From IMG/VR virus record IMGVR_UViG_3300028650_000126, positions 1 to 20,635 of that record: DNA of 20,635 nt. One strand, 5' to 3'. The notes below the pieces were generated by a model. It did no database searches and was not told where the DNA came from. It saw nothing but the letters and a program-made list of their open reading frames with translations. How positions within the stretch are numbered: the first letter of the stretch is position 1; every line of letters begins with the position of its first letter. Below are positions 1 through 17,700 of the stretch, one piece after another. The position numbers and the translations under genes are program-made. This DNA comes from a virus.

Positions 1-855
1 GGACATCCGTTCACGATTGCTACCTATCCTATATTGGATGGGAAGGTCATGGGATTCGGGTATTTCCATATTGACCAGCAGAAGTTCATAAACCGTTTGG
101 TTACGATGAATGACTTCCTCATACGCAATTCGGCCAAAGGAGTACTCCTTGTCCACAAGAAAGCCTTGGGGAGTAACTCGCCCGAAGAGTTTAAGAAAGC
201 TTGGGTAGACATGGATGGAGTTCTCGTGTGGGAGGGTGATGCAAATGTCCCAAAGCCGGAACAGCTTTCTACAAACACCACGAATATCGGTACAGATAGG
301 TTGCTTGAAATAGAGAAACAGATGATGGAAGATGTAAGCGGTGTCAGTGGTGCTATACAGGGAAAGACCCCCTACTCAGGCACCAGTGCTGCTTTGTACA
401 ACCAGCAGACCAGCAACTCCACAAACACCGTGAGTGGCCTTTTTCAAGTCTTCTCAAAGTTTATACGTGACGTGTCTGTAAAGAAACTAAAGAATATACA
501 GCAATTCTATGACCGCACGCGTAAGATCAACATTGCGGGTAAGTCGTATTCGGATGTAAACTACTACGATCCTGCGGAGGTAGGTGATCTGGAATTTAAT
601 GTCTCCGTTGAAGATGCCGCAGGCAGTCCGGTACACCGCATGGTTAACAACGACTTATTGATGCAGTTACTCGAGCAAGGACAAATCGATGTGGAGATGC
701 TTCTTGAAAATGGAGATTTCCCTTTTGCAGACCAACTCTTACAGTCCATACAACGGAAGAAGCAGGAGATGGCCGAGCAACAAATGCAACAAGGAGCTCA
801 GCAAGGAGGCCAACAAGAAGGCCAACAAGGTGGATCTGTTCCGCCACAAAATTAG
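1..855 (+). CDS. Phage portal protein, C-terminal part (5' end outside the window)
   Basis: The frame is open from the first base, so the start lies upstream; about 284 residues are visible. Portal proteins form the dodecameric ring at one capsid vertex through which DNA is packaged and ejected. Support: a helical segment rich in Gln, Ser and Thr near positions 300-440 (TPYSGTSAALYNQQTSNS), followed by a long helix with FIRDVSVKKLKNIQQFYDR, the usual layout of the portal stem and wing in Bacteroidetes phages. The C-terminal tail is a low-complexity Gln/Gly/Glu stretch (AQQGGQQEGQQGG), common at portal C-termini. It is the first gene of the co-directional structural run and the next gene starts four bases after its stop. 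TTG at 34 is only an internal codon. Portal identity is by recognition of family style, not by a search. Confidence 0.72.
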   Translation, partial: GHPFTIATYPILDGKVMGFGYFHIDQQKFINRLVTMNDFLIRNSAKGVLLVHKKALGSNSPEEFKKAWVDMDGVLVWEGDANVPKPEQLSTNTTNIGTDRLLEIEKQMMEDVSGVSGAIQGKTPYSGTSAALYNQQTSNSTNTVSGLFQVFSKFIRDVSVKKLKNIQQFYDRTRKINIAGKSYSDVNYYDPAEVGDLEFNVSVEDAAGSPVHRMVNNDLLMQLLEQGQIDVEMLLENGDFPFADQLLQSIQRKKQEMAEQQMQQGAQQGGQQEGQQGGSVPPQN

Positions 856-859
856 AATT

Positions 860-1369
860 ATGGGACTATTTGAAAACGAAATCACTGAAAAGAAGAAGAT
901 AGAAGTCTGCATCGTGATCTATGACGACGAAGTAATTTACGACGTAGAGAATCTTGTTGATAAGGGAATACGAGTAAAGAAACAACTCGATGCCTCTAGT
1001 GTGGTAGAAGCACAGCAGGCGGAGTACGAAAATGCTCAAGACCGTTCAATATTAATGCGCTCGTTAGCTCGTGGAAAAGGAAAACTACGCAACCTCCTCA
1101 CTTCTTATCTTGTCGACAATGGAACTTATGCAAAGGATAACACTCTGAAAGAGGAAAAGTCGCATACGATCTTCTGTCTTTCTTTTCCCTGCAACTGGAA
1201 AAGAGGACTCTTGGATGCACTGAAAGAGGAGATTCACGAATACCTCGTTCGCTCGGTGTTGTCAGACTTTGAACGCAATACGATGCCGGAGAACTCACAG
1301 ATCGACTTTGCACTGGCTGATGACAGCAGAAGTAATATACTGGGAATTATCCATAAGCGGAATAATTAG
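860..1369 (+). CDS. Small phage structural-module protein, unknown function (paralogue family member 1)
   Basis: 169 residues. ATG 860 is chosen because it follows the portal stop by four bases; the frame is open further upstream only as overlap with the portal gene. There is no signal peptide or membrane segment. The layout is: an N-terminal beta-rich part ending in EVIYDVENL (about residues 21-29); a Gln/Glu-rich helix; a helix with KLRNLLTSYL; a strand HTIFCLSFPCNW; then a long helix LLDALKEEIHEYLVRSVLSDF. The same order of elements recurs in the products of 3137-3610 and 3899-4447, so the three may be divergent duplicates. Its position directly after the portal suggests a head-tail connector or minor virion role, but this is inference and no known family was recognised. 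Confidence 0.8.
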   Translation: MGLFENEITEKKKIEVCIVIYDDEVIYDVENLVDKGIRVKKQLDASSVVEAQQAEYENAQDRSILMRSLARGKGKLRNLLTSYLVDNGTYAKDNTLKEEKSHTIFCLSFPCNWKRGLLDALKEEIHEYLVRSVLSDFERNTMPENSQIDFALADDSRSNILGIIHKRNN

Positions 1370-1393
1370 AACAAAACAAAATTTAGGATCACC

Positions 1394-1401
1394 TAACTTT
1401 G
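1394..1401 (+). promoter_or_regulatory. Possible Bacteroides-type -7 promoter element
   Basis: TAACTTTG matches the Bacteroidales -7 consensus TAnnTTTG and sits 18 bases before ATG 1420, in one of the few gaps of the structural run. No TTTG -33 element is seen at the expected distance upstream (about 1370-1375), so the match may be chance. Confidence 0.3.
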
Positions 1402-1419
1402 CACGAAAACAGAAACACA

Positions 1420-2016
1420 ATGGTAGGATTACTAGCAGGTGCCGCACTTTCTGCGGCAGGAAGTATATTTGGAGGCATAAGCGGACAAAAAACGGCTGAA
1501 AAGCAGACTGCACTCCTTGCGGCTCAAAAAGCCAATGAACAGGCTTACTATGATAAAAATTACAACGAAGACGTGTTCTCTACTTCTGATGCACAATCAG
1601 CAATGAAGTATGCCAGGGAACAGGCCGATAAGATTTTTAGAAAAGAAGCAGGTGCGGCAGCTGTAGCCGGAGCTACTACTGCTTCGGAATCTGCGGCAAA
1701 AGAACGTGCCAATGAGATGATCTCAAATACAGCGTCTGCGATTGCATCAACCGGTTCGTACAGAAAAGATTCTTTGGATGCCAACCATCTAGCACAGCAA
1801 AATAATTTTGCACAGCAGGAAATTGCCACCGAGGGAGCAAAGGGCAACGCAATAGCCGGTGCTACAAAAGGAGTTTTAGGAGCAGCGGGTAATATCTTCA
1901 TGGCATCCGACACATGGGGAAATCCCACACAGAATGCTACCAAGGTAGTAACCGGAAATTCCCCTAATGCAATAATCGGGAATCCTTATACATACGACAA
2001 TTCAACTTTAGTATAA
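1420..2016 (+). CDS. Putative DNA-ejection / internal virion protein (T7 gp14-like layout)
   Basis: 198 residues from ATG 1420; an in-frame TTG at 1399 is an alternative start but overlaps the possible -7 box. The N-terminus is a hydrophobic Gly/Ala stretch (VGLLAGAALSAAGSIFGG) followed by SGQKTAEKQ and a long Ala/Gln/Glu-rich helical body. A second Gly/Ala-rich hydrophobic patch lies near residues 150-170 (GATKGVLGAAGNIF). Size and order resemble T7 gp14 (196 residues): membrane-active N-terminus, SGQ motif, then Ala-rich amphipathic helices. In T7 that protein leaves the capsid and forms a channel in the host envelope. Here the assignment is inference from architecture; pilot-type proteins of other phages look alike. 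The next gene starts one base after the stop. Confidence 0.6.
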   Translation: MVGLLAGAALSAAGSIFGGISGQKTAEKQTALLAAQKANEQAYYDKNYNEDVFSTSDAQSAMKYAREQADKIFRKEAGAAAVAGATTASESAAKERANEMISNTASAIASTGSYRKDSLDANHLAQQNNFAQQEIATEGAKGNAIAGATKGVLGAAGNIFMASDTWGNPTQNATKVVTGNSPNAIIGNPYTYDNSTLV

Positions 2017-2017
2017 T

Positions 2018-3124
2018 ATGCTTGTACCGGATAATGAAGAGAAGAAAGCAGTTGCCACGAATCAGAATACAGTGCCTAGCCCTGTTAGGGACACTCCACT
2101 GCTTTCTGCGGATGAGGTAAACAAACCCGTTGACTCCTTCATAGGAGGGCTGACTGATATGTACGGAAATAATGCGTCTCCCCAGGCAGTCCCCGCCCCT
2201 CCTAAATATAAAAGTTTTGAAGATGTAGTTACCGACACTTGGAACAATAGGCCACAATCGCAGGTTGAGAAAGAACAGAAACAACTGAAAGCGAAAGGTG
2301 TAGCTTCTGCCATAACGGATGCCTTTACCAATCTTTCAAATCTCTATTTCACTAGTAAAGGTGCTCCGGATATGGGCGGCACTCAATATAGTAAACAGGT
2401 CTCCGACCAAGTTCAGAAGCAAAATGACTACCTTAAAAGATTACAGGAAGAACGTTTCAAAGCGATTTCGGATGCAAAGGTACAGGATGCAGCTTCAAAT
2501 AATTCATGGTACCGAGATATGGCAAAAGCCGGATATCAGAATTCAAATGCCAGACAGAATCTGCTTTTAGGTCAGGTCATGGATGCACAAAAGTTACGCC
2601 TGAAACAATCTTTCGACGTGCAGATGGCCAATGCCACCACTAACGAGAATAGAGTAAAAATAGCAGAGAAATATCAACAAGATAAAGAACTCTTGAAAAG
2701 AAGAAACGAACAGGAAATGAAAATGGCAGCCATCGGTCATCAAAACCGATTGTCAGAAGGCAGACAAAGTGCCGATCTGAGCTTACGTAACGGGGAGACA
2801 CTCAGTGCACTGAATAAAGGAAACAAGAGGAGTGGCACTTACCGTAGCATCACGGCTAGTGACGGAAGAAAATATGCGGTCGATAAGAATCTGGCTACAA
2901 CCATGGCTTATAACTATCTTGCCCAAAACAGCAAAAAGTTCGGAGCAGATGATCCGCTGAGCAGAATGGCAATGACCGCAGACTTAGAGGGGCTAGATGA
3001 GAAACAAATGGAGTTGGTCTTTTCAAAGATGTCTGCTGACCCCAATGCACTTAGAACGATTAAAGAATACGATACGATCAGTCGTGAGGGTTCGAAAAAA
3101 GAACTTACGGCAGGATGGAAATAA
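2018..3124 (+). CDS. Coiled-coil virion protein, putative internal/ejection protein
   Basis: 368 residues, with ATG 2018 one base after the previous stop, so probably translationally linked. The first 90 residues are Pro/Asn-rich and probably disordered. The middle (about 95-270) is a nearly continuous charged helix with many Gln, Lys and Glu, for example KQNDYLKRLQEERFKAI and KYQQDKELLKRRNEQEMKM, expected to form coiled coils. A Gly/Ser linker near 275-285 leads to a small helical C-terminal domain (LATTMAYNYLAQNSKKFG). There is no signal peptide, membrane helix or enzymatic motif. Its place directly after the gp14-like gene suggests a second ejection or internal core component. A scaffold or minor tail role cannot be excluded. 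Confidence 0.68.
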   Translation: MLVPDNEEKKAVATNQNTVPSPVRDTPLLSADEVNKPVDSFIGGLTDMYGNNASPQAVPAPPKYKSFEDVVTDTWNNRPQSQVEKEQKQLKAKGVASAITDAFTNLSNLYFTSKGAPDMGGTQYSKQVSDQVQKQNDYLKRLQEERFKAISDAKVQDAASNNSWYRDMAKAGYQNSNARQNLLLGQVMDAQKLRLKQSFDVQMANATTNENRVKIAEKYQQDKELLKRRNEQEMKMAAIGHQNRLSEGRQSADLSLRNGETLSALNKGNKRSGTYRSITASDGRKYAVDKNLATTMAYNYLAQNSKKFGADDPLSRMAMTADLEGLDEKQMELVFSKMSADPNALRTIKEYDTISREGSKKELTAGWK

Positions 3125-3136
3125 AACGAATAGAGA

Positions 3137-3610
3137 ATGACAGTAGATTTATCCTTATCACAGTTGCTGGATAGCTTGAAAAGAGAAAGTCGTTTCGTAG
3201 CAAGAGTATCCCTCAAGAAGGACCAAACTCCTGCTTATGACATCGCAAAGATAACCGGGCAGGAAAGCGAATTGCTCTCTTCTTATATCGTGTTAGCAGT
3301 AAGTGAGCTAAAGGCTCTTCTTACTACACTGATCGATGAGAATGTAAACACTGGCGGCACGTATGAGATTTCTCTATCAAGAGTCTTTGGAGATGCTCGG
3401 ATGAGCTCGTTAACCGAAGCAATCAAAGCTTATGTCGCAGCAAGGGTACTCGAGTTATTCTATCAAATCAGCTATCCCGAGTGCACAGAACCTTTGAAGA
3501 ATAGAGTCACTCTCTTGACAGAATCGATAAGACGTATCGCTTTCGGGAAAAATAAGATCGACACAGTAAGTAATCTAGGATACTCAAAATGGAGCACAAA
3601 GAGAACATAG
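3137..3610 (+). CDS. Small phage structural-module protein, unknown function (paralogue family member 2)
   Basis: 157 residues. ATG 3137 lies 12 bases after the previous stop and the end overlaps the next gene by 22 bases. The element order matches the products of 860-1369 and 3899-4447: N-terminal strands with PAYDIAKI (compare VIYDV and LLYDV), a helix with ELKALLTTLI, a strand TYEISLSRVFG, a long helix LTEAIKAYVAARVLELFYQI, then a final helix ending in ESIRRIAFGK. The repeated layout in three genes of one cluster argues for divergent duplicates forming a complex or ring. No known family was recognised; a connector or minor virion role is inferred from position only. Confidence 0.75.
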   Translation: MTVDLSLSQLLDSLKRESRFVARVSLKKDQTPAYDIAKITGQESELLSSYIVLAVSELKALLTTLIDENVNTGGTYEISLSRVFGDARMSSLTEAIKAYVAARVLELFYQISYPECTEPLKNRVTLLTESIRRIAFGKNKIDTVSNLGYSKWSTKRT

Positions 3611-3897
3611 AAGATGACAAGCCTAAAAGCGAAGTCAAACGAGGAAAGAACAAAGCCAACATCATCCTGAAAGAAGGAATGATCGCATTCTGTGAAGGTA
3701 ATATGGAAACGTTCAACAAGGCTTTCAAAGATTTGAAAGACAAGGATAAATGTGACGTATATCTGAAAGCACTCGGCTATTGTCTACCCTCTATAAAAGC
3801 AGTGGATTTTACCGACAAGACAGACGGAATAGCAAATTCATTGAAGAAAAGAATTTCTTCGCTAATTAATGCAGACGAAACTAATAATACGAAATAA
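3589..3897 (+). CDS. Small protein resembling Bacteroidetes terminase-small-subunit/DUF5681-type proteins
   Basis: 102 residues, starting inside the preceding gene (22-base overlap) and ending one base before the next start. The N-terminus is basic (KSEVKRGKNKANIILKEGM). It is followed by MIAFCEGNMETFNKAFKDL and then KDKCDVYLKALGYCLPSIKA. That last pattern recalls the common end of small terminase-like proteins of Bacteroidetes phages, where a basic GxKNK-type segment is followed by L-x-x-K-D-x-x-D-x-Y-x-K-L-x-x-Y-x-L-P. The resemblance is from memory and not verified. If right, the gene is out of place, since small terminase genes usually lie beside the large subunit ahead of the portal. Otherwise it is a small helical DNA-binding or virion protein. 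Confidence 0.55.
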   Translation: MEHKENIEDDKPKSEVKRGKNKANIILKEGMIAFCEGNMETFNKAFKDLKDKDKCDVYLKALGYCLPSIKAVDFTDKTDGIANSLKKRISSLINADETNNTK

Positions 3898-3898
3898 C

Positions 3899-4447
3899 AT
3901 GGCAAATACAGGTTCACAAATCGATTCGGGACAGACGGTCAGCATCAAGCTGTACAAGTCTGAACTGTTGTATGACGTATACAATGAAACGAACATATCG
4001 GGTAACGCAAAGTTCACCGGTGACAATTCACAGTTCATCTATTACATGAAAGCGAATGGAGAAACACAGACGGTAGACAAGATGCTGCGGTGTTTGTACA
4101 AGAGCACAGAGGAATTAAAAGCTTTTCTGCTACCCTATTTAGCTTCTCCTTCTTCGGAATCCACCACCAGTGAGGAACGCTTTAATATATTGGGTGACGT
4201 GACAGGCGACGACGATTTCATGGAGATAAAGATGAATGTCTCTAAACGACTCAACAAATCAATGTTGGACAGTATTTGTCAATTGGCTCATCGATTTATC
4301 TATCTGGAGATGCTAGTGGACTGGATGCGTAGCGTAAAGCCCGACGAATGTACCGGATATATGAACGAAATGTCAGTGATTTCGTCCTCTCTACGCTCCT
4401 GCTTCTTCAAGCTACCACCCAATAGACCCACTCATTCAAACGCGTAA
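3899..4447 (+). CDS. Small phage structural-module protein, unknown function (paralogue family member 3)
   Basis: 182 residues. ATG 3899 is preferred over an in-frame ATG at 3869 because it begins one base after the previous stop. The order is: strands VSIKLYKSELLYDVYNE; strand QFIYYMKANG; helix MLRCLYKSTEELKAFLLPYL; acidic loop and strand FMEIKMNVSKRL; long helix MLDSICQLAHRFIYLEMLVDWM; and a last helix near SVISSSLRSCFFK. This is the same plan as 860-1369 and 3137-3610. It is the last small gene before the tail fibre (two-base gap), so an adaptor between the neck and the fibre is a reasonable guess. There is no membrane segment, catalytic motif or recognised family. Confidence 0.75.
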   Translation: MANTGSQIDSGQTVSIKLYKSELLYDVYNETNISGNAKFTGDNSQFIYYMKANGETQTVDKMLRCLYKSTEELKAFLLPYLASPSSESTTSEERFNILGDVTGDDDFMEIKMNVSKRLNKSMLDSICQLAHRFIYLEMLVDWMRSVKPDECTGYMNEMSVISSSLRSCFFKLPPNRPTHSNA

Positions 4448-4449
4448 CT

Positions 4450-7074
4450 ATGATATACACTATTTATAAAGGCACAGGCTTCTCCATTAAATGGAGAATT
4501 ACCAGAAAGGGAAGACTCCTGCCACTCGATTTCAGACTGGAGGGGATAAGGGTCAAACTATTTGTCTGCACAAATGGAAACATGACCCCACTCAACTTCG
4601 AGATTACGGATAAAGGCGAAGTCAGCTTTGCGATCCTTGCAAATTCTTTTGGTGTAGGGGTTTATAACTTGTATCTGATCTGGGAGGATAAGGCTTCTAA
4701 AAAAGGAGAAGCGTTTGAGAAGGAAGCATTTATACTCACAGACGATGCAACCGATACCGATTCCAATGGATGCTACTATTTTAGTACCGAAGTTCCGTGT
4801 GTGGCCATGGATGGCCTTTCTGCTTATGATCTCTATGTACTGGACGGTGGAGGACTTACCCTGCAAGAGTGGATTCTTAGCACGGTAAGCAGTGCAAAGA
4901 ACGAACTCGATAGAATTGCGGCTGAAAAAGAAAGAGTCTCGGCGGAAAGCACGAGAAAGACGCAGGAAGAATCCCGTGTAATCAATGAAAATACGAGGAT
5001 TTTGTCTGAAAACGACAGAACAGCAAAGGAAATAGCAAGAGTCAGTGCCGAAAATAACAGAGAAATACAGGAGAAGGCAAGAAAAAGTTCTACCGATACT
5101 GCACTCTCCAATGTAAATGCAGCGATATCCAATGTAAACAACCTTACCGAATTGGTAAACGACATGTTCACTTACGGATATTTGTTCAGTAACATTCTAA
5201 CTAGTATTGAACCACCTGATTTTGTAGGAAGTATAGGAAAATATTTCTGCATCACTCAGATTCCCGGAGTCTATGCGTGGGCTAACAGCACCGAAGTAAA
5301 CGAAGGAGAAATAGCCTTTCTCGTTTATTCGAAAGATACGGAAACTAGTACTGCGACATGGCAAAAAGGGTCTATTAAGGTAACTTCACCGATAGGGACT
5401 GCAATAACCGAATTAAATGCGGATGTAGAAGCTATACAAGGCACACTAGTAGATACTACTTCTACTACCACGCAGGATACAACACTTGCTCCTGCTGCTA
5501 TGGGCTCATCTCCGACCTCTACGGGCATGTACTACTGGAATACGATATTCGTAGGATTATCTAATGTAAAGAAGATATCATTTAAGGCGCTCGTGGGTAC
5601 AACACGAATAGCTATAATAGATATAACCACACATGCCGTCATAACTCTATTATACACGCTCACTAACACCTCGGAAGAGGCGGGCAGCACCAAAATAGTA
5701 ACGCTTTTGGATGCGGTGTCATTGACTGCTTCACAGGCTATTGCCATATCTGGTAGCTTCTATTATGGATCGTCAACGGGTGACACTATGAAAGATTCGG
5801 GTGGTGGGACAACTGCGAGTTATGCGGCAGCGTATTCGGTTATCACGCAGGAAACTGTTACCGTTACGACTAAGGGGCTAACAAACAGTGTGGCGGAGAT
5901 CGAAAACAGACTCGTAGTCGTAGAAGATACAGTCCTCGAAAAAGAATATATAAGACTTTTCTCGGATTATTTTTCCGAAAAAGATAGTACAAAATGGTCG
6001 TATGTAGGCATTTGGAATCTATCGCAGGGAGGAGTAACCACCGCAGGAGTAGGGAATACTACGTACATGCAATGCACGAATGTATATCACGCGGATAACA
6101 GATTTATGCGTGCAAAGGTACTTATGCAGAGTAATACTGTTTTAAAGATTCCCGTGATCTATGGGGGCATAAATGCGGGGGAAGGGGCAAGCTGCTTCAC
6201 CGTAGACTTCTACGCAAAAAAACTTGCTATACACAGTGTCGGTTCGGGCTTAGATACGCAATGCACATCTACCGGCTACAATTCTGCTTATCTTGAATCG
6301 ATCGATATCCCTACCGAGGCCATCGGTAGCCGGGAGTACATTATAGAAATCTATAAAAAGGGCACTACAAGTACTATAAGATTGCTTGATACTCTTACTG
6401 GTACGCACTTGGAAATCTCGCATACTGGCTGGGGCGCAGGTAGACAAAATCAGAATTACGCGTTCTATACAGAATCAGGAACACCCCCTGTGTTTTTAAG
6501 CTTCGAAGTGTACGCACTATATAATCCCGACGTCGTATTTGCAGGCGACAGCATAACAGAAGGCGTTTATGTTTATGACCGTGCCAAGAGATATGCGGAG
6601 TTATTTAGATCGGAAAATCCTACAAAAAAAGTGATGATCTCCGCGAGAGGCGGAGATGACATACACGGGGTAGTGAGTAAATTCACATCTGAATATAACA
6701 TATATAAGCCCAAGATTATATGCGTACTTATAGGGGCTAATGGCGGAAATACGCTAACAGACTTGCAAATTTTAAAAGCTAAATGCGATGCCATAGGCTC
6801 TACTTTAATACTTCATTATAGGACGTGCCAGCAAAACGGGAATTCACATATAGCGGGCAATACTATGATTGCTGCCGTAGGCGTAAATGGCGCACGATTT
6901 GACAAAGCTACCGCCCTATTAAATGATCCTGGCGACGCCTCTACTACGGTAGATGGAACGAACGTAAGATATAATCCATCTTTATACGAAGATGGCGGAT
7001 TGCACCCGAATGCGTTAGGAGACCAAGCGATGTTTAACCGTCTTCGAATAGACACCCCCGAATTATATTTTTAA
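4450..7074 (+). CDS. Tail fibre/spike (receptor-binding protein) with C-terminal SGNH/GDSL hydrolase domain
   Basis: 874 residues. The first 110 residues form a beta-rich anchor-like domain typical of Bacteroidetes phage fibres and BppU-like baseplate proteins (GTGFSIKWRITRKGRLLPLD). A strongly charged coiled coil follows at about 145-215, a stalk expected to trimerise. Beta-rich Ser/Thr regions then run to about residue 690. The last 180 residues are an SGNH hydrolase: block I FAGDSITEG with candidate nucleophile Ser701, block III LIGANGGN (Gly762, Asn764), and block V DGGLHPNALG (Asp848, His852). Such fibre-borne domains commonly deacetylate or deacylate capsule or O-antigen sugars during adsorption. 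It is the largest structural gene and sits just before the lysis cassette. The exact substrate is unknown. Block V has one extra Gly between Asp and His compared with the usual DxxH spacing. Confidence 0.85.
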   Translation: MIYTIYKGTGFSIKWRITRKGRLLPLDFRLEGIRVKLFVCTNGNMTPLNFEITDKGEVSFAILANSFGVGVYNLYLIWEDKASKKGEAFEKEAFILTDDATDTDSNGCYYFSTEVPCVAMDGLSAYDLYVLDGGGLTLQEWILSTVSSAKNELDRIAAEKERVSAESTRKTQEESRVINENTRILSENDRTAKEIARVSAENNREIQEKARKSSTDTALSNVNAAISNVNNLTELVNDMFTYGYLFSNILTSIEPPDFVGSIGKYFCITQIPGVYAWANSTEVNEGEIAFLVYSKDTETSTATWQKGSIKVTSPIGTAITELNADVEAIQGTLVDTTSTTTQDTTLAPAAMGSSPTSTGMYYWNTIFVGLSNVKKISFKALVGTTRIAIIDITTHAVITLLYTLTNTSEEAGSTKIVTLLDAVSLTASQAIAISGSFYYGSSTGDTMKDSGGGTTASYAAAYSVITQETVTVTTKGLTNSVAEIENRLVVVEDTVLEKEYIRLFSDYFSEKDSTKWSYVGIWNLSQGGVTTAGVGNTTYMQCTNVYHADNRFMRAKVLMQSNTVLKIPVIYGGINAGEGASCFTVDFYAKKLAIHSVGSGLDTQCTSTGYNSAYLESIDIPTEAIGSREYIIEIYKKGTTSTIRLLDTLTGTHLEISHTGWGAGRQNQNYAFYTESGTPPVFLSFEVYALYNPDVVFAGDSITEGVYVYDRAKRYAELFRSENPTKKVMISARGGDDIHGVVSKFTSEYNIYKPKIICVLIGANGGNTLTDLQILKAKCDAIGSTLILHYRTCQQNGNSHIAGNTMIAAVGVNGARFDKATALLNDPGDASTTVDGTNVRYNPSLYEDGGLHPNALGDQAMFNRLRIDTPELYF

Positions 7075-9253: not shown

Positions 9254-10066
9254 ATGAAAAACCACTTAGTAAAAAAAGCAGCAAAGAGTATTATCTCTAA
9301 AAAGAAATTATTTCTTATTCTTGCATTCTCTCTTACTTATCCGTGTGTAGGGTTTGCACAATGGAATGTAAACGGTAATAATCAATGTAACGGCAACCTA
9401 GAGGTAGGAACTACGATTGATTCAACCTATTCATTCATAAAAATACATGCTCCCAATAAACCTTTTTATGAAGCAAGTAAAGCCGATCTCCTTTTTGAAT
9501 TTTCTCATCCCTCATGCAGCAGCGCTATTAGAGCATATCGTGGAGGAGAATGGGGTACATACTTGCAGATAATGACTTCTTCTCCAACAGCAGCAGGTGG
9601 CCCTAAGTTAGATGTAAGAATGCATTTCAATGAATGGGGAAATGTTGGAATAGGAACAGTATGTCCAGGTTACAAGCTAGATGTAAATGGAAAGATACAC
9701 TCTCATGGTGGACTCTTGGTTGATTCGGGATATGTGGGCATTGGTACTTTCTCTCCAGCTCATGAATTAGATGTAAACGGTACAATACGAGCTAAAGAGG
9801 TTTTAGTAGAATCTGGTTGGGCTGATTATGTATTTGCAAATGACTATAAATTACCAGCTTTGAATGAGGTTAAATCTTATATCAAAGACAATGGTCATCT
9901 CTCAGGCGTTCCTTCTGCTGAAGAAGTTAAAAAAACAGGTATTGGAGTTGGAACTTCTACTGCGATGTTATTGCAGAAGATAGAAGAACTAACTTTGTAT
10001 GCTATTCAGCAGCAAGAAGAGATCCAGCTAATGAAAAGTAAGATAGAAAAGATGGAAAAACAATGA
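9254..10066 (+). CDS. Exported tail-fibre-type protein with VGIGT repeats and S74-like C-terminus
   Basis: 270 residues. The N-terminus has a long basic stretch and a hydrophobic core ending in VGFAQ, a probable signal peptidase I site near residue 36. Two copies of a V-G-I-G-T-x-x-P-x-x-x-L-D-V-N-G repeat lie near residues 133-150 and 161-178. The C-terminus (about 200-270) contains LPALNEVKSYIKDNGHLSGV, SAEEVKKTGIGVGTSTAMLL and a heptad-like helix. This resembles the S74 chaperone-like trimerisation ends widespread in Bacteroidetes exported 'tail fiber domain' proteins. A signal peptide is odd for a virion fibre, so a cell-surface or secreted product of the lysogen is more likely. Its stop overlaps the next start (ATGA), forming a two-gene unit. 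Confidence 0.78.
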   Translation: MKNHLVKKAAKSIISKKKLFLILAFSLTYPCVGFAQWNVNGNNQCNGNLEVGTTIDSTYSFIKIHAPNKPFYEASKADLLFEFSHPSCSSAIRAYRGGEWGTYLQIMTSSPTAAGGPKLDVRMHFNEWGNVGIGTVCPGYKLDVNGKIHSHGGLLVDSGYVGIGTFSPAHELDVNGTIRAKEVLVESGWADYVFANDYKLPALNEVKSYIKDNGHLSGVPSAEEVKKTGIGVGTSTAMLLQKIEELTLYAIQQQEEIQLMKSKIEKMEKQ

Positions 10067-11013
10067 AAAGAAAAATATTATTTTTATTGATGACAATTTT
10101 GTCATCAACCTTGATGAAGGCTGCTATTTATATTTCCGGAGAGTATAGCGACATCATGCAATATCAGGCATATGAATATTGGATTTCCAATTATAAAAGT
10201 GGAGAAGTTGTGGCGAATAGTTTTACTTGGAAAATAAAAAATGGTAAAATATGGGATGCCTCAACTGATAAATTTAATTTAGACTCTTTGAATGTTGATC
10301 ACATAAATAACAGGTCTCATATTTATGTTATTTGGACATCTGACAATGGAGGCGCATTGGAACTATATGCTAATACTAGCCGTGGATCTAATCTTTTTTT
10401 AAATTTTCCAATTACAACTTGGCCTGCCGATGATGAGATGAATAATGAAGTGTTTTCAACTCCGATGTCTAGCTCCGAATATTTGGGGGTGAGTACTTGG
10501 ATTCATGATTGCGTTGTAAACAATGGTGGTGGGCTACGTATCTGGGCTACAAAATCAATACGAATAACTCCTCCTTTTGAGGCTTATGAAGGTAGTACTG
10601 TAAGACTCCTTGCTAAAATGGAAACCAGTGCATTAGCCGATACAGCTTACTCTGATACAGTTATAGCTCCCGAAAGTCTTAAGAAAATGGTATTATCTCG
10701 TTGGGTAGATCCTCAAGAAACGATTTCTAGCTCAGTGACAGAACTTGGATCGCCTAGTTTGGGAACTAATACTCCGAATCCATTTACAGAGAGTTCTGTG
10801 ATTTCTTGCTATATACCGAAATTAGCTAATTCAGCACAGATATTCATTTTTGATGTTGCTGGCAATGCTATAAAAAAGATTAACTTAGCGGATAGAGGAA
10901 ATATAAGTATTACAATAAATGCTTCCGACTTTTCTAAAGGAGGAACCTACTGTTACGCTCTTTTGTTGAATGGTAAATTTGCTGGCTCAAAGAAAATGCA
11001 AGTTATTAAATAA
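10063..11013 (+). CDS. Exported protein with type IX secretion-like C-terminal sorting domain
   Basis: 316 residues with a signal peptide (KRKILFLLMTILSSTLMKA) cleaved near residue 20. The central region (about 25-225) is beta-rich with no recognised domain. The last 80 residues read as a Por/T9SS type A sorting domain: NTPNPFTESSVISCYIPKL, then QIFIFDVAGNAIKKI, a Gly/Ser/Ile strand (GNISITINASDFSKGGTYCY) and a final strand ending in KKMQVIK. Such domains guide cargo through the type IX system of Bacteroidota and are then removed or anchored. It overlaps the upstream S74-like gene by ATGA, so the two are probably co-expressed and may form one surface structure. A phage origin is doubtful; it looks like host-derived cargo. 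Confidence 0.78.
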   Translation: MKRKILFLLMTILSSTLMKAAIYISGEYSDIMQYQAYEYWISNYKSGEVVANSFTWKIKNGKIWDASTDKFNLDSLNVDHINNRSHIYVIWTSDNGGALELYANTSRGSNLFLNFPITTWPADDEMNNEVFSTPMSSSEYLGVSTWIHDCVVNNGGGLRIWATKSIRITPPFEAYEGSTVRLLAKMETSALADTAYSDTVIAPESLKKMVLSRWVDPQETISSSVTELGSPSLGTNTPNPFTESSVISCYIPKLANSAQIFIFDVAGNAIKKINLADRGNISITINASDFSKGGTYCYALLLNGKFAGSKKMQVIK

Positions 11014-11176: not shown

Positions 11177-11713
11177 TTAATTTACACACCAATCTTTTTC
11201 AATCAATGCATATATCAAGTCATCAACCCATTTTCCATTGATTAATAAACTCTCGACAAAGTGAGCTTCTTTCCGGAATCCAACTCTTTCAAATAATCGA
11301 ATAGATTTTTTATTATCAGGATCAATTGATGCTATAATCCGATGTTTATTCAATTTTTTAAATAAATAGTCAATTACTGCCTTAATAGATTCTGTTGCAT
11401 AACCTTTATCCTGAAAATCTTTATTTAGCGTGCATCCAATTTCAACTTGTTTATTTGCATTGTCAAAAAAGTGAATGCCCAAGTCACCAACTATTTTTTG
11501 TGTCTTTTTCTCAATGATGACAAGTTGAAACCAAGTATCAGATTCATTAATTTGTTTTGAGATTTTTCCAATGAATACTTCCACATCAGTAATAGTTTTA
11601 GGAATCCATCCTTGGTACTTATTTGTCTCTGCATCGGAACGATATTCAAAAACTTCACTTTTATCAGCAAGAGTAATCGGCCTAATTATTATTCGTTCAG
11701 TTTCTAATTTCAT
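11177..11713 (-). CDS. GNAT-family N-acetyltransferase (RimJ/RimL type)
   Basis: 178 residues. The opening LETERIIIRPITLAD is the standard start of RimJ/RimL-like acetyltransferases. VGDLGIHFFD (about 75-85) forms the central strands. The acetyl-CoA loop is DFQDKGYATESI, with Gln101-Ala106 as the Q/R-x-x-G-x-A motif, and DPDNKKSIRLFERVGF (131-146) is the conserved strand and helix that closes the active site. The family moves an acetyl group from acetyl-CoA to a protein N-terminus, antibiotic or small amine; the acceptor here cannot be told. It lies on the - strand between the exported-protein unit and rloB, convergent with the former, and inside the interval bracketed by the 47-bp direct repeat. 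It is probably cargo. Confidence 0.93.
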   Translation of the reverse strand: MKLETERIIIRPITLADKSEVFEYRSDAETNKYQGWIPKTITDVEVFIGKISKQINESDTWFQLVIIEKKTQKIVGDLGIHFFDNANKQVEIGCTLNKDFQDKGYATESIKAVIDYLFKKLNKHRIIASIDPDNKKSIRLFERVGFRKEAHFVESLLINGKWVDDLIYALIEKDWCVN

Positions 11714-11777: not shown

Positions 11778-11808
11778 ACTGCCGTAGGTGCAGTCTTTAT
11801 TTTTTATT
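11778..11808 (+). terminator. Orphan terminator-like hairpin next to the right repeat copy
   Basis: ACTGC (11778-11782) and GCAGT (11790-11794) form a five-base stem with a seven-base loop, followed by CTTTATTTTTTATTT. It points rightward, but no + strand gene ends here. It resembles the terminator at 8828-8869 in the same position relative to the repeat, so it may be a duplicated relic. Confidence 0.5.
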
Positions 11809-11838
11809 TCAGTAATCTATCCGGATTTTTCAATTCCT
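11790..11838. repeat. Direct repeat, right copy (partner 8852-8898), over the 3' end of rloB
   Basis: 49 bases spanning the rloB stop and its last ten codons on the - strand. The match to 8852-8898 has three substitutions and one two-base indel. The two copies are in the same orientation, about 2.9 kb apart, and enclose two exported-protein genes and the acetyltransferase. This suggests insertion or recombination at the rloB 3' end. Confidence 0.85.
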
Positions 11839-12484
11839 CAACCAACTCATTCACATGGGTGCAAGGATTGTGAATTGAATAATTCTCGTCAGTAAACTGT
11901 TCTTGCAAACGCTCAGCATTGATAATAGCTTTCTCCTCATCTCCATATTGTTGCAATAGAGAATAGAAATCGGTGTCGTTTTTCTTGTATTTATAAGTAG
12001 AATCACCAGTCGCTTTTTTAATCTCACGTTCTATTATTTCTTCGTATCCTATCCGTGATATAGCTGAATCCAAATATTGGAAATGAAGACAATACCATAA
12101 CTCAAAGGACTCATTTGACCACGCGCAATTAATCTTGTTCTTTTTAGCTAATGCGATAGCTTCATTGAAATCTTGAAAGTCGTCTTTGTCAAATACCACC
12201 CAAACACGATCAAATTCCTTTTGAGATTTATCCCGTATGGCAATAGCCTCTTTGACTAGACTGACCGTTCCGAGACCCTTCCCTTTTATAGTGAACTCAC
12301 GCACATCTGAATAACGATCTTTAATAAGTGCTAAAAAGTAATTAGGTTCAGTACATTTGCCCTCACAAACAATAAGAAAACTGACTGATACGGTTCGTGT
12401 ATTGACCTTACGCTTCTTGTCTTGCTTAGCTTGTCGGTGGGCACGCTTAAGCTCTTCCATTTTGTTTTTTGGCAATAATCCCAT
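11804..12484 (-). CDS. rloB: RloB-family TOPRIM-like protein (AbiL-type defence effector)
   Basis: 226 residues, starting five bases after the rloA stop. The basic N-terminus (residues 8-30) precedes FLIVCEGKCTEPNYF (36-50), with Glu41 and Glu46 in the family's C-E-G-x-x-T-E motif. VWVVFDKDDF (94-103) supplies the acidic D-x-D-D cluster, and SNESFELWYCLHF (123-135) is the characteristic S-x-x-x-F-E-x-W-x-x-x-H-F block. These mark RloB, a TOPRIM-like nuclease-type fold. RloA/RloB relatives, such as lactococcal AbiL, act in abortive infection: the ATPase partner is thought to control a toxic TOPRIM protein. Its 3' end coincides with one copy of the 47-bp repeat. In a phage such a pair would protect the lysogen from competing phages. 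Confidence 0.92.
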   Translation of the reverse strand: MGLLPKNKMEELKRAHRQAKQDKKRKVNTRTVSVSFLIVCEGKCTEPNYFLALIKDRYSDVREFTIKGKGLGTVSLVKEAIAIRDKSQKEFDRVWVVFDKDDFQDFNEAIALAKKNKINCAWSNESFELWYCLHFQYLDSAISRIGYEEIIEREIKKATGDSTYKYKKNDTDFYSLLQQYGDEEKAIINAERLQEQFTDENYSIHNPCTHVNELVEELKNPDRLLK

Positions 12485-12489
12485 AGCTT

Positions 12490-13761
12490 CTAATCTTTAA
12501 TGTATGGAATTGCCCCATAGCGACCGTTTATATAGTCTTTCTCTAGGCTACGATCATTGCGGATTTTGGTACCATTCACATCCTTAAATTCAACCAAAGA
12601 ATATAGATCGGTTGCTGCTGTCTTATTCTTTTCAGTAAACCAAATCTGATCTCTTCTAAAAGTTTTCGTATTTAGCAGATTTGTATCGTGCGTGGCAAAA
12701 ATAAGTTGCGCTCCTTTTTTATTTACCTCAGGGTTATTGAATAGATTAATGATTTGTCTTGTCAAAAGCGGATGTAATTTAGCATCCAACTCATCGACCA
12801 ACAAGATTGTACCACCCAACAACGTACTGAAAATAGGTCCGGACATTTCGATTATTTTCTTTGTTCCCTCAGATTCCATTTCATCTTTGTTGAATGATTG
12901 AAGTTTGCTTACCTCTCCTTTCTCATTATAAATCTGATGGACGGTCTTAATAGACAACATTTTTTCTCCTGAAAATTTCTTTTTCAATTGTTCTTTCAGT
13001 TTGTCCGACAGAATATCACTAGGCAACATCTCATCCCTAAAATCTATCTCGCTGATAGTAATATCTTCAAAGCCCAATTCTAACTGATGAAAAAAAGAAA
13101 GCGCATTATCACAACCTTCCAAATGTTCGTGTAACATGCGAATGGAAAGTCCTTCGTATCCATCACTCTTCAGACCTGAAACATAGTTACAATATCGGAA
13201 CCATTCGATAATCTGCCCTGATTTTGTACCTTTGAGTTGTGCCACCAATGAAAGAAATAATCGGTTATCAAGAGTATCTTCTTCTCTTCCCTTTCCTTCC
13301 TTAAAGCGTGTCTCCGATACCTCAATTCCATCTTCAACACGAAGGAAAAGGTTGTATTCCCGTTCACCCGGCAGTTTTTCATATAGCCATTCCGAGATAA
13401 TTCTTGTTGAAACGAAAGTATATCCGTAACGATATTTGGTAGTATCAATTAAGAATTCCATTTCAAAAGAAATAGGTTGCTCGTCTTTACTTTCTATCAA
13501 GAGAAATGGATCAAAATCCAACTTGTCACCCGGATTGAGTTTTACTGAATCAAGTAAAACCTGTTTCATCGTTGCGATTGCCCGTAACAAATTACTTTTT
13601 CCACTTGAATTGGCTCCATAAATGACGGCAGAAGGCAACAATTTGTATTTGCCTTTAGTGATAACTGATTCTTTGAGTTCCTTAATGGCCGTAGCTTCCA
13701 TACTCAAAGTGCATTTCTCCTTAAAAGAACGATAGTTCCCTACGGTAAAGTTAATCAGCAT
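12490..13761 (-). CDS. rloA: RloA-type AAA/ABC-like ATPase, partner of RloB
   Basis: 423 residues, the standard size for AAA_15/AAA_21 ATPases of defence systems. The start MLINFTVGNYRSFKEKCTLS is the typical N-terminal strand pair. Walker A is GANSSGKS (49-56). The C-terminal half has a signature-like segment SEGTKKIIEM, Walker B TILLVDELD (Asp323, Glu324) and the switch His358 in IFATHDTN, the ABC/SMC-like layout. Such proteins dimerise on ATP and sense infection, often by recognising phage DNA ends or inhibitors, and restrain or release a TOPRIM partner. rloB follows by five bases on the same strand. A near-consensus promoter and a perfect inverted repeat lie upstream, so expression is probably repressor-controlled. 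Confidence 0.92.
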   Translation of the reverse strand: MLINFTVGNYRSFKEKCTLSMEATAIKELKESVITKGKYKLLPSAVIYGANSSGKSNLLRAIATMKQVLLDSVKLNPGDKLDFDPFLLIESKDEQPISFEMEFLIDTTKYRYGYTFVSTRIISEWLYEKLPGEREYNLFLRVEDGIEVSETRFKEGKGREEDTLDNRLFLSLVAQLKGTKSGQIIEWFRYCNYVSGLKSDGYEGLSIRMLHEHLEGCDNALSFFHQLELGFEDITISEIDFRDEMLPSDILSDKLKEQLKKKFSGEKMLSIKTVHQIYNEKGEVSKLQSFNKDEMESEGTKKIIEMSGPIFSTLLGGTILLVDELDAKLHPLLTRQIINLFNNPEVNKKGAQLIFATHDTNLLNTKTFRRDQIWFTEKNKTAATDLYSLVEFKDVNGTKIRNDRSLEKDYINGRYGAIPYIKD

Positions 13762-14720: not shown

Positions 14721-17700
14721 TCATTCTTTTTCATCATGATCCTCCCACAGTAGCGGGATATTCTTCTCATACTCTATAACGGCATTTTCTTTCAAATCAT
14801 TTATCCTGTTCTGCAGAAGTTCTTTTTGCTTTTTATCTGTTACGCTGTCGATACTCTTGTACAACTTACTGATCATCTCATTGTAAAAATTGAAAGTATG
14901 ATCGTATTGGGATTGTGAGGAGCGCATCATTTGTGTATACTCTTTGACTGCCGTTTCTTTTTGAGTATTGTCTATTTTTGCAGCGGAGCTTTTATAGATA
15001 CTTTTATAGATTCCGGCATTCTTTTCCCGGCTTTCCACTTGTTCTTTATACTCATAAAACTTTTCATTAACAGCTCTATTTATGATAGTTTCATCCTCTG
15101 TCCTAAACAAAACATTTAAGAGAGGAACATTTCTAGTTGTAAATTCCTCGTCTCCCTTTGCCGCATTTATTCCATTGATTATCGTATTGGATATCTGAGA
15201 AACGATCTTAAAGGGTCCACCAGCATAGCCTTCGACGACGTGCTCCATTTTGGCGGGATTCCAGTCGAGAAGACCGATGCTGTTCTTCGTAGCGTTTAGC
15301 TCATCATCGTTCCCGAGTGAATTACTCCATTCGGAAAGGAATTTGAATAACCCACCCGTTCCTTTTGGTGCTTTGGTATATTCAGGATTATTTTCATTGT
15401 AATAGCTGTCGTTGCTGATTCTTCCTCCATAGAAGTTCTCATTATAGAGGTAGGCTTCTCCCAAAGGTTTTATTACAGAGGGTAACCACCATCCTCTTCC
15501 TCCTTCCATCGGGTCGACTGGTAAGATTGCAGAGAATTGTTTAACAAGATCGGCACCTAAATTGAGATGTTTCCTATTCCCTTTTGCATATTCGTTCATG
15601 ATTCGCCCCATGCCGTAGATTAATCTAAGATCTATTGGTAAAGGTATCATTATGAATCCGCCAAAAGGAGTGAACAAGACAATGTTGTTATTGGCTATGG
15701 AGTCCGGCAAATTGTCGTAATACCTCTTATCATCATCGTCTCCAAAGAGCATAAGCATTAGGCTGTTAAGCATTGGGATAACTGCAAAACCCATGGTAAA
15801 GTTAGCTAAGGTTATTGCTGTCATCTTTATCGGATGGTTCTTATACAGCTTCGAAGTATTGTAAAGCCCCTGTATGCCGGCATTGAAAAAGACGTAAGAA
15901 CCTCTGACTAAGGCAAAGGTCTGCCCCCAGAAACCTTCTCCGCCAAGACCTGTACGATTGAAATTTACGGTAATCTCTTTAGCATCCATTACGGAACGAC
16001 TTACACTTCTACCTTGACTGATACTGGTCTGATATGTATTAAAACGAGAGACAAGCTCCGCAATGCGGTTGTAGTCGTTTGTGAATTTCATTACTGCGGA
16101 TGCTGCGTCAGCGGGGGTTAGATTTTTTCCGTTTACTTCATCGATCATTTTTTTATACTTGTTCTTCCAATCTTCTACCGAGGTATTTATGCTAAATCCC
16201 GTTTCACCTCCATTCTCTAGAAATTTGTTCAGTGCTTCAAATTCCGGGCTATCTTTATCAGTCTTTCCTGCGAAGTATTTCCGAAGCATTAAAGCTGATC
16301 TGGCATAGTTTCTTCGATAAGAATTTAGATAGTTCAAATCCTCTTTAGCTATGATGGCCGTGAGCGCAAAGATATTATCGCGAGAGAAATTTGAAAGGAT
16401 GAAATTCGGATTCCTTGTGGTATAGCTAGATGACATCCATCTTGATAATCTTGTTCCGGCTTTCCAATTGAACTTTTCTACGTTTTTCTGAGCAGTGCCA
16501 TTGATTAGTTGCGCTACAATAGGATCGCCATTGACGAAAACGCTATGCTTTATACCGTTGACATAAGCATATACGACATGTTCCTGAGCGTGACGTCTTT
16601 GTTCGAAGGGTACTTGCAAGTCTACTTTGCTCAGCTGTTTTTTGGCCTTTCCCTCGGCCTCCAATGCTTCCATCGTTTCGTTGAATGTTCTGAATGCTTC
16701 ATTGATTTCAGTTTCTTCCATGCCGGGAGTGATGGTAGGATATTTTTCCTCCCATTCACCAAGTCCATTTTCAACATACCAAACAGACGCTGTTCGGAGA
16801 AGTTTGCCCGGATGGTTCTGCGAAAGATACAGCAAAGCCTTTCCTACCCTATTTTTCTCTGAAATCTCAATTGCCGAAGTGATGACATTTGACATAGTGG
16901 CAATAACATCGTCAGGCAAGGATGCTCTGCCATTCGCACCTTTTAGCGGATCGTTAAACAAACTTGTTGCTGAGGTGGTGTATTTGTGAAGATCTTCGGC
17001 CATGGTCTGATCCCATCCCCGAAGAGGAACATAGTTGTTGTACATAGAAATGATTTCGTCATACTTCTCCTTCGAAAGTATTCCGGAACGGTACTCGAGC
17101 CTCACAGAAGTTTGGTTGAGTGCGTTGGTAGTTTCCCATAATTTCTCAATCAAGTTAGGATCCTGTTCAGCAATCTGTTCTTCTACGATGTTAGCATACT
17201 GCCTGCAGAAAGAATCGAAGTCGCCCGATGCGTAATGCGACATCAAGTCATTGTATTGTTCTTCACTGAATCCTTTTTTAGATAGGAACTCATCTTTGTT
17301 GAAGTCCGGCTTCTGTGTTTCCTCTGCTATCTTCTTCATTAAAGCCGATGCTCCGGCAAAGTCTTTTCCCTCCACATTTAAGTTCCCCTCGCTCATCTTC
17401 TCTTCCCTCATGTGGTCGTTTCTCTCCGGCATGTGTTTGGCCATCATGTAATGATTTACCTCCTCTGGGGTAAGTCCACAGTCAACCATTTGAGATACTG
17501 CATTTATAAATGGTTTGTAATAGATGCGCTCAATATTATCGGCTATGCCACGAGTTTTTGAGGAACGAAGCATCTCTGCCTGATAGACATTCTCGAAGTC
17601 CTCGATGCCTTTTCCTGTTTGTTTCTCCAGCTCTTGTTGCAAGATCTTTACCGGATGTAATCTATCCACTACAATCGTAAACAACTTATTTAGCGACTGG

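Follow-up and report, generated by a model that had tools for sequence, protein, structure and literature searches.

The window analysed here, a virus record of 20,635 bases, carries on its plus strand a head–tail module in which a portal gene, whose start lies upstream of the window, is followed by three small genes (copies A, B and C, encoding P0001, P0002 and P0003) with other genes between them, and finally by a probable fibre gene. A preliminary description of the sequence had proposed that the three products are divergent copies of one unnamed family, and the starts and extents which it gave for their reading frames were found to be correct. The module is composed as follows, with r1, r2 and r3 denoting the three classes of this family in related phages:

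1 to 855, plus strand: C-terminal part of a P22-type portal protein (PF16510 P22_portal, 3e-23; phrog_156 portal, 7.9e-32)
860 to 1369, plus strand: copy A (P0001, 169 aa), directly 3' of the portal gene, closest to class r2
1420 to 2016, plus strand: possible ejection protein of 198 aa (PF24072 T7_gp14, E = 0.14, not significant)
2018 to 3124, plus strand: 368-aa protein with no significant family match
3137 to 3610, plus strand: copy B (P0002, 157 aa), the most divergent copy, with a short loop as in class r1
3589 to 3897, plus strand: 102-aa protein, its gene overlapping the 3' end of copy B, with no significant family
3899 to 4447, plus strand: copy C (P0003, 182 aa), which is nearest to class r2 and then to r3
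4450 to 7074, plus strand: probable tail fibre or spike with a GDSL-hydrolase-like C-terminal domain (PF13472, 9e-7, residues 697–859, a match slightly under Pfam's cut-off)

A homologue of the possible ejection protein is encoded near the portal in contig L022, and the 368-aa protein might be a second ejection protein. The viral contig IMGVR_UViG_3300028651_000022 (L012) probably carries the head genes that lie upstream in this phage, as the end of the contig (positions 8001–8688) is identical to positions 1–688 of the window.

Relatives of the three proteins were collected from three isolated Bacteroides phages, viral contigs and Bacteroidota genomes, which gave 146 member ORFs. The contig scans were run with class-specific alignments, the initial alignment being too variable; P0001, P0002 and P0003, each used as a single query against viral contigs, returned zero relatives, as the sequences are too divergent. 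A nucleotide search among phages found nothing matching, Pfam gave no match above its cut-offs for any of the three proteins and none common to the family members, and a profile search against the PDB did not find a sequence relative of the family. All three proteins do match PHROG 19255 (P0001 with 1.4e-14, P0002 with 3.7e-4 and P0003 with 1.5e-14), and a profile made from 104 members outside the window recognised P0003 with E = 1.4e-24, P0001 with 4.2e-19 and P0002 with 8.4e-6. With this profile the window trio ranked right behind all 143 non-window member ORFs, and the best non-member among about 9,700 other ORFs reached E = 0.38. The r2 profile gave 57–61 bits for P0001 and P0003, with 300 shuffles of each protein never exceeding 10 bits, and the r1 profile gave 14.4 bits for P0002 against 3.0 for the best of 300 shuffles. 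When P0001 was aligned with the r2 profile by hhalign, a probability of 97.6% was obtained over residues 11–167, nearly the whole length. By sequence comparison P0001, P0002 and P0003 are thus paralogous copies of one family, confirmed by both the PHROG match and the non-window profile. The proposal of one unnamed family is borne out, and the trio falls into a single uncharacterised family instead of different known ones. Of the 91 aligned members all match PHROG 19255 and 57 match PHROG 35482, and class r1 is separated from r2 and r3 in the PHROGs' split of the family; the two PHROGs are the direct family, but 19255 and 35482 are annotated as 'unknown function', with no mention of rings or triplication.

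Within the window the three proteins share only 15.5–16.4% identity pair by pair in the family alignment, as expected from the low identity noted before, and P0002 is weak by sequence alone in its 14.4-bit match to r1. Both points would fit a mere chance likeness of small mixed alpha/beta proteins without a common family. We regard such a coincidence as extremely improbable, since the non-window profile finds each of the trio at 8.4e-6 or better against 0.38 for the best non-member, the independent PHROG profile matches all three, and the two structural models described below have a common topology. The homology is above chance despite an identity of 15–16%, and the claim that order and spacing of the elements agree can be kept with a correction of the motif list on which it was based. 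Models and alignment agree that the second strand FMEIKMNV (107–114) of P0003 is the counterpart of TYEISL (75–80) in P0002, and that the helices with the E/K-L-K/R pattern (56–76 in P0003 and 41–61 in P0002) are homologous. One of the five listed motifs, AYDI in P0002 (33–36), is out of register, as it is located one helix further on (helix 31–37) and is not equivalent to VIYDV and LLYDV; the P0002 equivalent of the Y-D-V motif is LLDSL (10–14). Also, Y-D-V does not end a strand as had been described, and sits within the helix that follows strand 1 (helix 20–37 in P0003).

Among the relatives, which are Bacteroidota phages and prophages with nearly always three copies per genome, the order r1-r2-r3 was found in 42 loci, corresponding to about 37 distinct records once contigs fetched twice are removed. 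The three positions form three clades in a maximum-likelihood tree (support 99/89 for r1, 97/89 for r2 and 100/99 for r3), and on this tree the triplication predates the group's spread, with each class retained since. In 29 long viral records, the majority of which had been picked for this portal, the family was present in 22, of which 20 have exactly three copies and the other two have two; of the seven negative records, six may be fragments, with lengths below 48 kb. As 20 of these 22 records have exactly three copies, the classes are retained side by side and are probably not interchangeable. Five distinct contigs (L022, L105, L106, L111 and L131) carry r1 and r3 without r2, which on this gene content is the variable member of the set, and a search with a relaxed profile found no missing copy in the two-copy records. 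The middle ring class r2 seems to be dispensable or gained later. For the window itself the best-scoring class is r2 for copies A and C and r1 for copy B, with all three on long tree branches where their placement is unsure. Weak matches were also seen in other Bacteroidales genomes; L142 has the family beside the portal and the rest are by their appearance mostly host-flanked remnants.

In order to compare the folds we used AlphaFold2 models of P0003 (pLDDT 84.8) and P0002 (pLDDT 81.2), with the model alignment rebuilt without the loci behind four of its rows, which came from annotated phage records. Both models show the same order of elements, namely strand, helix, short helix, helix, strand(s), long helix and helix, with short strands only (two in P0003, three in P0002), so that the two modelled copies have one topology and not unrelated folds, an agreement that is not fully independent as the P0002 model was built with the family alignment. 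In VIA-align the best seven rows for P0003 are all head-to-tail adaptors or necks (Z 7.8–6.5, best unrelated row 5.2), including SU10, Kp7, Sf6 gp7, P22 gp4 and phicrAss001 Ring protein 1. For P0002 the best 23 rows are all of this kind (Z 9.3–6.0), including T7 gp11, KP32 TTPA, Pa223, Carin 1, P-SCSP1u, Mu, P1, JBD30 and most of those found for P0003. Ring protein 1 of phicrAss001 (7qog_B, identified as gp43), which is among the best rows for both models, reached Z 8.4 with an rmsd of 2.7 Å over 99 residues. Foldseek against the PDB gave no match with E <0.3 for either model, and against predicted viral proteins the best match of P0003 was an uncharacterised podovirus protein (E = 1e-5). Individually, Z-scores of 6–9.3 are unconvincing as common helical arrangements can reach such values, but the unbroken run of adaptors is convincing. 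We assign the gp4/gp11/HK97-gp6-like head-to-tail adaptor fold to the P0002 and P0003 models with moderate confidence, and for P0001 this fold is suggested by its homology to class r2 only. The adaptor rows thus favour the earlier guess that the three proteins belong to the neck.

Adaptors of this fold are known as dodecameric rings under the portal in P22, T7 and phicrAss001. We consider it likely that the products of the three genes are paralogous ring (adaptor) proteins at the head-to-tail junction of a short-tailed Bacteroidota phage, which would form stacked rings. Each product would be small, consisting of a helical adaptor core and a few short strands, and, judging from fold and context, would most likely assemble into its own dodecameric ring. 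These rings, with a presumed copy number of 12, would stack beneath the dodecameric P22-type portal and give a tail barrel longer than the one-ring adaptor of T7 or P22, which could act as a conduit for ejection proteins and for the DNA leaving the head. Both the order of the rings and their presence in the virion are what we infer from this model.

Two other arrangements of the same proteins have to be weighed. The three paralogues might build one mixed hetero-oligomeric ring, for example with four subunits of each in a dodecamer, and their co-encoding in a conserved order would fit this design as well as three homo-rings. The sole solved case of paralogous rings, phicrAss001, consists of stacked single-protein dodecamers (PMC10172136), and in the records with only r1 and r3 a whole ring could more readily have been lost than one subunit of a mixed ring, which makes the mixed ring an unlikely solution. 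It is also rather improbable that a single copy serves as portal adaptor while the others have drifted to different tasks in the virion, for example as a collar for fibre docking or as accessories in assembly or lysis. The strong divergence of the copies would be explained in this way, and an endolysin and a DUF6808 protein adjoin the genes in many relatives, but the most divergent copy, P0002, has the strongest adaptor match, the three classes are retained together and the window copies are located between portal and fibre. Three stacked homo-rings are therefore the arrangement that we prefer.

L022, L091 and L142 also have family members near the portal. In most relatives the triplet is distant from the portal and lies between the endolysin and DUF6808 genes and a convergent gene for a protein of about 900 aa, and as it is often so far away its location alone would not prove a role in the neck. 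The isolate BS-TP4, which carries the triplet, encodes an integrase, and none of its genes is annotated as tape measure, tail tube or sheath. Its gp7 (L001:13491-15587) is called a 'tail spike protein' in GenBank, yet it matches phrog_5989 (8.7e-11) and phrog_24361 (5.2e-10); as these are families of terminase large subunits, gp7 is probably misannotated.

Two further proteins of the group might belong to the same structure. A phrog_22135 protein of 212–217 aa, conserved in the group, is encoded after the major capsid protein, as in L012:6256-6894, where it lies between major capsid protein and portal, and in BS-TP4 (gp13, L001:19477-20115). It shows an LP-x-DF pattern resembling tail adaptors, and we would guess that it is a further, more classical adaptor and a candidate for a fourth ring. 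The convergent protein of about 900 aa (phrog_32516; L092:7407-10103 on the minus strand and relatives) adjoins the portal in L022 and shows a weak match to phrog_511 'internal virion protein'; as a guess, it could be the counterpart of a nozzle or muzzle. A sequence search of the PDB gave no match for either protein.

The closest known parallel is phicrAss001 (Crassvirales), in which four paralogous ring proteins, R1–R4, with 15–31% mutual identity stack into five rings that make up a 23-nm barrel (PMC10172136). These are gp43, gp40, gp35 and gp34. Several paralogous adaptor-fold proteins per genome, a P22-type portal and Bacteroidota hosts are common to both systems. In contrast, the window family is smaller (about 150–180 aa versus 225–238 aa), and the phicrAss001 rings have a beta-sandwich domain beside three helices whereas our models contain short strands only. 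The relatives of BS-TP4 also differ from phicrAss001 in being temperate with genomes near 64 kb. Sequence homology with the crassvirus rings was rejected at the sensitivity used, as hhalign of the family against R1–R4 gave a probability of ≤0.9% for all pairs. An hmmsearch with the group's portal, MCP and TerL profiles found no match in positions 11000–60000 of crAss001, the one crassvirus compared and a stretch holding only part of TerL (gp19, cut at its start); hhalign against crAss001 was not significant for portal and MCP, and a similarity to its muzzle was not detected by sequence. By analogy the triplet may work like the crassvirus rings, with no membership in Crassvirales found in this comparison with one crassvirus. 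P22 gp4 and Sf6 gp7 are of similar size, occur with a P22-type portal and gave VIA-align Z-scores of about 6–7 for both models; P22 and Sf6 have one adaptor each, whereas the window phage has three paralogues plus the phrog_22135 candidate. T7 gp11 and the KP32 TTPA-type tail tubular protein A, which gave the rows with Z 7.6–8.5 for P0002, are single ring proteins of about 190–200 aa with a larger beta domain than the window family.

In the literature the crassvirus atlas was the sole multi-ring podovirus paper that we found. A short tail of multiple rings has so far been described for crAss-like phages and is probable here too. It is possible, though we put it somewhat below an even chance, that a second podovirus lineage of Bacteroidota phages outside Crassvirales arrived at a multi-ring barrel independently, through triplication of a smaller adaptor. 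This would be a case of convergence, perhaps related to the thick capsules of Bacteroides, with a ring number that can be adjusted as in the contigs with only r1 and r3. If so, ring multiplication would be a recurrent route to longer short tails, and two PHROG families of unknown function in cultured temperate Bacteroides phages would obtain a role. BS-TP4 and BKO1-TP3 are isolates with which ring number could be related to tail length.

The remainder of the window carries further genes. Downstream of the lysis genes, positions 9254–11013 encode two secreted-looking proteins of 270 and 316 aa, the latter with a C-terminal end that by eye resembles a type IX secretion sorting domain, although Pfam at 1e-3 gave no match. 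On the minus strand at 11804–13761 lies an AbiL/RloAB-type abortive-infection pair (RloB 3.5e-45, AbiLi 4.1e-97, AbiLii 8.1e-30), followed by a GNAT acetyltransferase (11177–11713), which together, judging from these family matches, are phage-borne defence cargo. The minus strand at 14721–20552 encodes a polyvalent protein of 1943 aa, which contains RadC-like JAB, MuF C-terminal and LPD38 domains and is probably packaged and injected; in L142 a homologue of it is encoded immediately before the portal.
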